DNA from: Psychroflexus salarius
GTDB lineage: Bacteria; Bacteroidota; Bacteroidia; Flavobacteriales; Flavobacteriaceae
Assembly (NCBI RefSeq): GCF_900129035.1
Contig: NZ_FQTW01000001.1
Location: 124,001-188,000 of the forward strand
Direction of reading: 5' to 3'
DNA length: 64,000 nucleotides
A program made the position numbers and the translations under genes. Numbering within the stretch: the stretch's first letter is position 1; every line of letters begins with the position of its first letter. Below the pieces are notes generated by a model that saw nothing but the letters and a program-made list of their open reading frames with translations, was not told the origin of the DNA and did not search any database. Shown one piece after another: positions 33,767-34,796 of this stretch.

Positions 33767-34626
33767 TATAAAATCATTTTTTCAATAGGATTAACTAAAA
33801 TGCTTTCAGCGCCAGCAGCTTTCAACTCGTCTATGATGTCCCAAAATTTTTCTTGGTTAATCACCGTGTGTAATGAACTCCAATTCTTTTCAGCTAAAGG
33901 CATAACCGTTGGACTTTTCATCCCTGGTAAAATTTTTATGATTTGATCAATTTTATCATTTGGTGCGTTAAGCAAAACATATTTAGCGTCTTTAGCTTTT
34001 AAAACCGCATCAATCCTGAATAAAAGCTTGTTTAATATTTCTTTTTTATCAGGATTTAAATGAGGTGATTTAACTAAAACTGCCTCACTTTTAGTAATTT
34101 CTTCAACCTCTTTTAAATTGTTTTTGAATAATGTACTACCGCTTGAAACGATATCGCAAACCGCATCGGCTAAACCAATACTTGGCGCAATTTCAACTGA
34201 ACCGTTTATGAGGTGAATTTCGGCTTTTATTTGATGTTGATCTAGAAATTTTTGAAGTGTATTTGGGTAAGATGTTGCAATTTGTTTACCATTTAAATCT
34301 TTTGGCGATTGATAATCAACTTGATTAGGTATGGCTATTGAAACGCGACATTTTGAGAAGCCCAAAGATTTTAAAATAGGTAAATCTTCCCCTTTTTCTA
34401 AACATAAATTTTCACCAATAATGGCAGCATCAACCACTTCATCACGTAAATATTGTGGAATATCACCATTTCTAAGGTATAAGATTTCTATCGGAAAATT
34501 TGAAGCACTGACCTTTAGCTGGTCTTTTCCATTATTAATTGATATGCCACAATCTTTTAATATTTGAAGCGAGTCATCATGTAAACGACCAGATTTTTGA
34601 ATTGCAATTTTTAGTTTTTCTTTCAT
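33766..34626 (-). CDS. hisG: ATP phosphoribosyltransferase (long form)
   Basis: 286 aa, first committed enzyme: ATP + PRPP gives phosphoribosyl-ATP. The start KLKIAIQKSGRLHDDSLQIL and the PRPP loop SSGSTLFKNNLKEVE mark HisG. The length and a C-terminal ACT-like regulatory domain (about 205-286, containing ILPGMKSPTVMPL) make it the long, self-regulated form that needs no HisZ and is inhibited by histidine. It is preceded by the leader peptide and attenuator at 34642-34759. Confidence 0.97.
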   Translation of the reverse strand: MKEKLKIAIQKSGRLHDDSLQILKDCGISINNGKDQLKVSASNFPIEILYLRNGDIPQYLRDEVVDAAIIGENLCLEKGEDLPILKSLGFSKCRVSIAIPNQVDYQSPKDLNGKQIATSYPNTLQKFLDQHQIKAEIHLINGSVEIAPSIGLADAVCDIVSSGSTLFKNNLKEVEEITKSEAVLVKSPHLNPDKKEILNKLLFRIDAVLKAKDAKYVLLNAPNDKIDQIIKILPGMKSPTVMPLAEKNWSSLHTVINQEKFWDIIDELKAAGAESILVNPIEKMIL

Positions 34627-34641
34627 AGCTTTAAATTAAAA

Positions 34642-34671
34642 AACCCGTTTAAACAAATGCTTAAACGGGTT
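34642..34671 (-). terminator. his operon attenuator (intrinsic terminator between leader peptide and hisG)
   Basis: On the minus strand, an 11-bp stem AACCCGTTTAA / TTAAACGGGTT with an 8-nt loop GCATTTGT is followed by four further T residues. It lies 22 bp after the leader stop and 15 bp before hisG. The loop side (GCATTTGTT, 34660-34652) is exactly complementary to AACAAATGC at 34710-34702 inside the leader reading frame, giving a mutually exclusive antiterminator. Confidence 0.85.
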
Positions 34672-34693
34672 ATGTGTTATAGTTTAACTTACA

Positions 34694-34759
34694 TCAACGC
34701 TGCATTTGTTCGTGATTTAACGAATACCAAACATGATGATGTAAATGTGTTATTTTCAT
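34694..34759 (-). CDS. His operon leader peptide (21 aa)
   Basis: The reading frame starts MKITHLHHHVWYSL and continues with one further His before the TGA at 34696-34694. Five of 21 codons are His, at positions 5, 7, 8, 9 and 16, against about 2% expected. It sits between a full promoter and the attenuator. By analogy with the enterobacterial his leader, ribosome stalling at codons 5-9 when charged tRNA-His is scarce would free the segment AACAAATGC (codons 17-20) to block the terminator. At sufficient His the ribosome reaches the stop, covers that segment and lets the terminator form. Confidence 0.85.
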   Translation of the reverse strand: MKITHLHHHVWYSLNHEQMQR

Positions 34760-34765
34760 ATAATG

Positions 34766-34796
34766 CAAATTTAACTATAAGTCTAACTTCTACAAA
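34766..34796 (-). promoter_or_regulatory. his operon promoter (-33 TTTG, -7 TAAATTTG)
   Basis: On the minus strand TTTG (34796-34793) and TAAATTTG (34773-34766) are separated by 19 bp, a perfect Bacteroidota housekeeping promoter. Its -7 box ends only 6 nt before the leader ATG, so the leader peptide would be translated from a nearly leaderless mRNA. Confidence 0.8.

Follow-up and report, generated by a model that had tools for sequence, protein, structure and literature searches.

The locus upstream of hisG in Psychroflexus salarius raises the question of whether a short, histidine-rich reading frame and the hairpin behind it control transcription of the histidine operon. In the window, i.e., the whole stretch of 64,000 nucleotides that was analysed, all of these elements lie on the minus strand. 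The answer favoured here, with high confidence, is that they form an attenuator through which a translating ribosome controls transcription of the his operon. Comparison supplies the parts, their conservation and their coevolution, and calculation supplies the folding states; we infer the start site, the stalling of the ribosome and the response to histidine. The original prediction had named the element a translational attenuator, for which the correct term is a transcription attenuator controlled by translation. The hallmarks of this class, namely a run of codons for the product of the pathway, a terminator before the first gene and a mutually exclusive antiterminator, are present at the locus. 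For Bacteroidota, the element represents a predicted and testable control of histidine synthesis.

Architecture of the his leader

The promoter originally described ahead of the leader, TTTG-N19-TAAATTTG, lies on the minus strand at 34796-34766. It comprises a -33 element, TTTG (34796-34793), read in the sequence, and, 19 nt from it, the -7 element TAAATTTG (34773-34766), which follows the sigmaA consensus TAnnTTTG. The leader frame, MKITHLHHHVWYSLNHEQMQR, runs from its ATG at 34759 to 34694, consists of 21 codons plus a stop, and is conserved before hisG. Five of these codons specify histidine (codons 5, 7, 8, 9 and 16), three of them adjacent, exactly as originally described. Codons 5-9 (34747-34733), the putative regulatory codons, carry His 5, 7, 8 and 9, and this His run is the part conserved in relatives. 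Further downstream, an intrinsic terminator hairpin (34671-34642; fold -16.8 kcal/mol) is followed by a T-run to 34638 and then by hisG, in agreement with the predicted order; its stem, thought to be 11 bp, folds instead as 13 bp with one G-U pair. The controlled gene, hisG (34626-33766, ATG at 34626), matches PF01634 (E 1.3e-48) and is the only match to this family in the genome. It is the first of eight his genes in a predicted operon that continues with hisD, hisC, hisB, hisH, hisA, hisF and hisIE (33766-27462), co-directional frames named from the look of their proteins rather than by family search.

The geometry of the leader also bears on a different possibility, that the frame serves as a translational enhancer (a reinitiation "antenna") or controls translation of hisG and not its transcription. 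Leader genes near structural genes have been proposed to aid reinitiation, and a section of that report gives a peak distance of 11-14 bp for Bacteroidetes (PMC4833913), whereas here 67 nt separate the leader stop from hisG, the terminator stands in between and the hisG start is outside the stem. We regard such a role as very unlikely.

The antiterminator strand, GAACAAATGC plus AGCG, occupies leader codons 17-21 (34711-34698) and is conserved and covarying in relatives. The exact 9-nt complementarity proposed between AACAAATGC (codons 17-20) and GCATTTGTT at 34660-34652 exists and forms the core of the pairing, but the best duplex is longer: GAACAAATGC pairs with GCATTTGTTT, and AGCG pairs with CGTT across a 3-nt bulge. 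The loop and the 3' arm of the terminator are involved, as had been supposed (34660-34651, the loop and part of the 3' arm), but part of the 5' arm is taken as well (34667-34664).

Two features had been overlooked, a predicted near-leaderless start of the mRNA and a leader hairpin that joins the His codons to the stop-codon region. This hairpin, H0, is formed in folding calculations by ATTTACATCA over the His codons (34746-34737) and TGATGTAAGT from the stop codon on (34696-34687). It has 10 bp with a mean pair probability of 0.93 without a ribosome, is also part of the minimum-energy fold, and encloses the antiterminator strand. An inner hairpin, P1 (TTCGT-TAAATC-ACGAA, 34724-34709), has five pairs in the sequence; in the RNA, UUCGU-UAAAUC-ACGAA reaches a probability of 0.59-0.66 without a ribosome, and the minimum-energy fold takes another register. 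Because P1 overlaps the antiterminator strand by only three bases, the outer helix H0 is the better candidate for hiding it.

Conservation and coevolution before hisG

With hisG as bait, the loci of 80 relatives, mostly Flavobacteriaceae by record title, were collected, followed by genus, order, class and phylum searches. Order, class and phylum loci are no random sample, as each of these searches kept the 30 hisG copies that scored best. A leader was counted when an ATG frame of 10-32 codons contained three His within six codons and its ATG lay 60-270 nt before the gene. By this rule, 76 of 81 loci (the window and the 80 relatives) and 14 of 20 same-genus loci have a His-run leader before hisG. 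Among best-scoring copies, it was found in 15/15 order-search loci (600-kb genomes set aside), 25/30 class-search loci and 18/26 new phylum-search loci. Locally shuffled copies yielded a mean of 0.05-0.35 leaders per set (0.35 for the 81-region set), and among 30 control regions upstream of trpE none had a His run and 27 had a Trp run. The locus sets overlap, so that the 138 leaders from the window and L002-L161 represent 131 distinct ones, and in the set L102-L161 five loci (L116, L122, L126, L128 and L131) belong to the same family as the window.

Within the genus, some leader peptides are identical (L084 and L004, P. halocasei; L085 and L007, P. salis). Same-genus leaders L092 and L095 have only two adjacent His, L101 has no adjacent His pair, and no leader was found at L094; decay or altered control within the genus is possible at these four loci. 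A family of 600-kb genomes has hisG in all 15 fetched loci and a His leader in none of them (L107-L109, L112, L113, L115, L117, L118, L120, L123-L125, L127, L129 and L130). A size of 600 kb is that of insect endosymbiont genomes, and his control seems to have been lost along with genome reduction in this family.

The original prediction expected the His codons and the pairing to be conserved in relatives, and these do retain the His run and the terminator as well as the pairing between leader and terminator. A terminator below -8 kcal/mol stands behind 135 of the 138 leaders, in a scan run without a shuffled control. For closer comparison, the 111 rows were reduced to 56 non-redundant ones, of which 50 were aligned; L046, L079, L102, L103, L104 and L106 were dropped as ill-fitting or divergent. 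RNAalifold recovered the terminator alone from these 50 rows; the antiterminator and P1 were therefore tested as specified structures. In the terminator, 98.5% of cells are paired and six pairs are changed on both sides. In the antiterminator, 91.5% of cells are paired, compared with 49.8% in the best slid control, and seven cells are changed on both sides, compared with 2.0 in shuffles, none of 500 shuffles reaching seven.

The manner of pairing varies among lineages. For most relatives, the partner of the antiterminator strand is the terminator's 5' arm, and the loop-centred register of the window is a local variant common to its sister L099. Many of the 80 relatives have a leader ending in QAR, encoded by CTCAAGCGAG or near variants, which is complementary to the 5' arm CCCGTTTGAG. 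Other families have GGGCTTACC or a near equivalent in the terminator, and GGTGAGC, GGTAAGC or the like as the last codons of the leader. Where terminators differ between lineages, the last leader codons tend to differ to match. A leader pairs better with its own terminator than with those of other species in 68/96 cases (window, L002-L101) and 33/39 cases (L102-L161), and better than shuffled leaders do in 96/96 and 36/39, although these duplex tests and their P values ignore common descent. Contiguous antiterminator helices average 7.7 bp in the set of 96 and 7.6 bp in the set of 39, and just 38/96 and 16/39 of them surpass every one of 30 shuffles. In 84/96 and 20/39 leaders, 11-14 nt lie between the His run and the start of the strand; in 55/96, its end is 3 nt short of the stop codon.

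This pattern also speaks to the role of the neighbouring gene. An SPFH-like gene (35636-34821, minus strand) lies upstream of the leader in the same orientation and ends 24 nt before the -33 element, so that the hairpin could be its terminator and the short frame a chance or unrelated small ORF. Against this stand the retention of His-run leader and terminator in many relatives, the coevolution of leader codons with the terminator, and the promoter between the SPFH-like gene and the hairpin, which together make the explanation highly improbable. A double role of the hairpin, as attenuator and as terminator of the SPFH-like gene, is possible.

The leader hairpins were compared in the same sets. 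In 84/96 and 28/39 cases, the leader segment has a better fold than its shuffles. For H0, the own spacer performs better than the spacers of other species in 60 of 84 distinct rows (window, L002-L101); in L102-L161 it does so in 23/37, which is not clear (P 0.14). Against shuffled spacers, the corresponding counts are 72/84 and 29/37, and H0 is more likely than not to form without a ribosome in 41/84 and 23/37. The presence of P1 in relatives is moderately supported, with 61.8% of cells paired against 51.2% in the best slid control and two of five measures at chance. In many relatives the inner hairpin reads CUUGCU-CUCA-AGCGAG, and its outer pair in the 50 rows is C-G in 30, U-G in 6, A-U in 4 and U-A in 1.

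Judged by these comparative signs in sequence, the same attenuator design is widespread in the class. At phylum-search loci inside the class, a terminator below -8 kcal/mol was found at 4/6. Outside the class, 12/20 best-scoring phylum-search loci carry a leader, with such a terminator behind five of these 12 and none found by the scan behind the other seven. As terminators outside the class are few, the full switch is supported within the class, and beyond it mainly the leader; a phylum-wide full switch was considered and dropped on these counts. Loci L168, L171-L173, L176, L188 and L189, all outside the class, have very His-rich leaders, e.g., MKQTLLYISHLHLDVHHAHHGHHHIHVQ, and no terminator by scan. 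Perhaps these leaders reflect another use of the sensor; if so, they would represent an additional and distinct variant of it.

Folding states and the proposed switch

The effect of a ribosome on the leader was calculated by barring ribosome-covered bases from pairing. In the window, folding of the whole terminator at equilibrium lets the terminator win in every state (0.97-0.98), which means that the switch must be kinetic. Since full-length equilibrium folding cannot reveal such a switch, shortened transcripts were used, ended 6 nt before the end of the stem. With a ribosome on the run's final His codon, the antiterminator exceeds a probability of 0.5 in 81/96 leaders (window, L002-L101) and 22/39 leaders (L102-L161); without a ribosome it does so in 19/96 and 3/39, and with a ribosome at the stop in 0/96 and 0/39. 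This outcome persists for footprints of 9-15 nt and stalls at the first or last His, the weakest case being a 15-nt footprint at the last His, with the antiterminator in 53/89 and 13/39 distinct leaders.

For the window, the antiterminator reaches 1.0 with a ribosome stalled at the last His, 0.15 without a ribosome and 0.0 at the stop on the transcript 6 nt short. In a separate run, stalls at codons 5, 7, 8 and 9 gave 0.91, 0.87, 0.89 and 0.98, respectively, and a ribosome at codon 16 or at the stop gave 0. When the transcript was only 3 nt short of the stem end, the values for the same four codons were 0.01, 0.15, 0.34 and 0.70, so that only a stall at codon 9 still sustains the antiterminator. 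Without a ribosome, it still reaches 0.46 at one transcript length. The choice between antiterminator and terminator, governed by a stalled ribosome or one at the stop codon, had been put forward in the original prediction and is supported by the coevolution together with these masked folding states.

The proposed mechanism would proceed as follows. Transcription would start a few nucleotides before the leader ATG, allowing a ribosome to load near the 5' end at once. When charged His-tRNA is available, the ribosome would reach the stop codon and cover the last leader codons; because these hold the antiterminator strand, the terminator is proposed to form and hisG to stay silent. When His-tRNA is short, the ribosome would halt at codons 5-9 and leave the last codons free to pair with the emerging loop and 5' side of the terminator, which would then form too late, and the operon would be read. 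Without any ribosome, H0 and the inner pairs would enclose the antiterminator strand, and the default is therefore proposed to be mostly off. The net effect would be expression of the his genes only when histidine runs short.

Leader start and relation to known attenuators

Bacteroidota have unusual promoters and lack Shine-Dalgarno sequences, as stated in the consulted part of PMC9723704. That part also places the -7 box of F. psychrophilum at -12 to -5 and gives a median 5' leader of 24 nt and 5.5% leaderless mRNAs (PMC9723704), and in a section on B. thetaiotaomicron 3.7% of 5' UTRs are shorter than 10 nt (PMC7366714). Applied to the window, the F. psychrophilum box position predicts a transcript start near 34761 and a 5' leader of 2 nt; a gap of 7 nt between box and ATG would give one of about 3 nt. 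Of 138 leaders, 52 have an exact TAnnTTTG box 5-10 nt ahead of their ATG, most often at precisely 7 nt (35 leaders), whereas shuffles average 0.9 such strict boxes. A relaxed box at 5-10 nt is present in 88; a second class of 20 has a relaxed box at 16-21 nt, and 30 belong to neither. Counted over the 131 distinct leaders, 45 strict and 81 relaxed boxes lie at 5-10 nt. Of the window's 55 ATG frames of at least 120 aa, many of which are spurious or lie within operons, two have a box at 4-10 nt. The his leader mRNA may accordingly be placed, on sequence grounds, among almost leaderless transcripts; if this were true, leaderless initiation would be coupled to attenuation in a phylum where leaderless mRNAs are rare. 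In a Maribacter-Zobellia-like group (L016, L021, L031, L052, L070 and L076), the His frame is open upstream, to 37 codons, and a strict -7 box precedes the inner ATG by 57 nt and another in-frame ATG, upstream of the inner one, by 27 nt. A relaxed box is also found close to the inner ATG, and the leader start is ambiguous in this group, given the longer frame and the strict box 57 nt upstream.

Attenuation by a histidine leader is best known from enterobacteria, where His codons, a stalled ribosome and a choice of antiterminator or terminator precede hisG. The enterobacterial leader (RF00514) shares this logic with the window's leader, which differs in holding its antiterminator strand within the last leader codons and in its predicted near-leaderless start. 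The RF00514 model gave no match in the window at its gathering score, and it did not hit the leader even with E values of up to 10 allowed. More broadly, no Rfam 15 family matches the his leader at gathering score, and sub-gathering hits (best Trp_leader, 26.8 bits against 41) were rejected as memberships; the ilvD and pheA families have no match in this genome. Attenuation upstream of hisG in enterobacteria receives a single mention in the part consulted of a 2021 survey of superphylum his genes (PMC8305728). In F. psychrophilum, passages of PMC9723704 describe strong indications that amino-acid biosynthesis operons are attenuated by leader peptides; the word "histidine" is absent from the main text of that paper, and his may be in its supplement. 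In the literature searched, no description of a his leader was found for Bacteroidota, and Lopatovskaya et al. 2010 may already predict one. Another likeness, by description and not by sequence, is the trpL of Sinorhizobium meliloti, a leader-peptide attenuator whose RNA 5' end is the trpL ATG according to part of PMC7298713, although it concerns Trp and an alphaproteobacterium.

The closest counterpart is Bacteroid-trp (RF01692), found before trpE in the same genome (L162, 1301-1426; 59.9 bits). Like the his leader, it has TAnnTTTG, 7 nt, an ATG, a short frame (18 codons, MKNIILNNWWWLNLRQAS, with WWW) and a terminator; it differs in having Trp instead of His codons and in its terminator sequence. 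Unlike Bacteroid-trp, the window's leader has one Trp codon only and precedes a his operon. The RF01692 model matched neither this leader nor the his loci of seven relatives (L013, L067, L116, L136, L153, L134 and L142). The kind of attenuator is known, and the his member, sister in design to Bacteroid-trp, appears to be new. The present analysis adds the position of the leader ATG, often about 7 nt behind the -7 box, and the same layout in the trp attenuator of the same genome. An old his/trp attenuator type of Bacteroidota, with a leader ORF near the 5' end, no Shine-Dalgarno sequence, 70S loading and an antiterminator in the last codons, is a tentative proposal whose chances we put somewhat below even; the few terminators outside the class lowered them slightly, from just short of even. 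If such a type existed, reading to the stop codon would itself be the off signal.

That the His-rich peptide is a functional small protein, for instance a metal binder, is scarcely credible: the run is conserved as protein, the trpL peptide acts in trans in Sinorhizobium (according to part of PMC7298713), and the seven terminator-less leaders outside the class would fit, but the trpE sister leader has Trp at the same place, so that the residue follows the operon, and the common QAR ending is explained by the antiterminator strand. As an attenuator, the his leader forms a counterpart to Bacteroid-trp, which is already known, and a rule for such elements would help annotators to mark their leader genes. 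A minor observation concerns the trp leader of the same genome, in which the stop-codon region (GTCGTGA) can pair with the loop and 3' arm of the terminator (TCACGAC).
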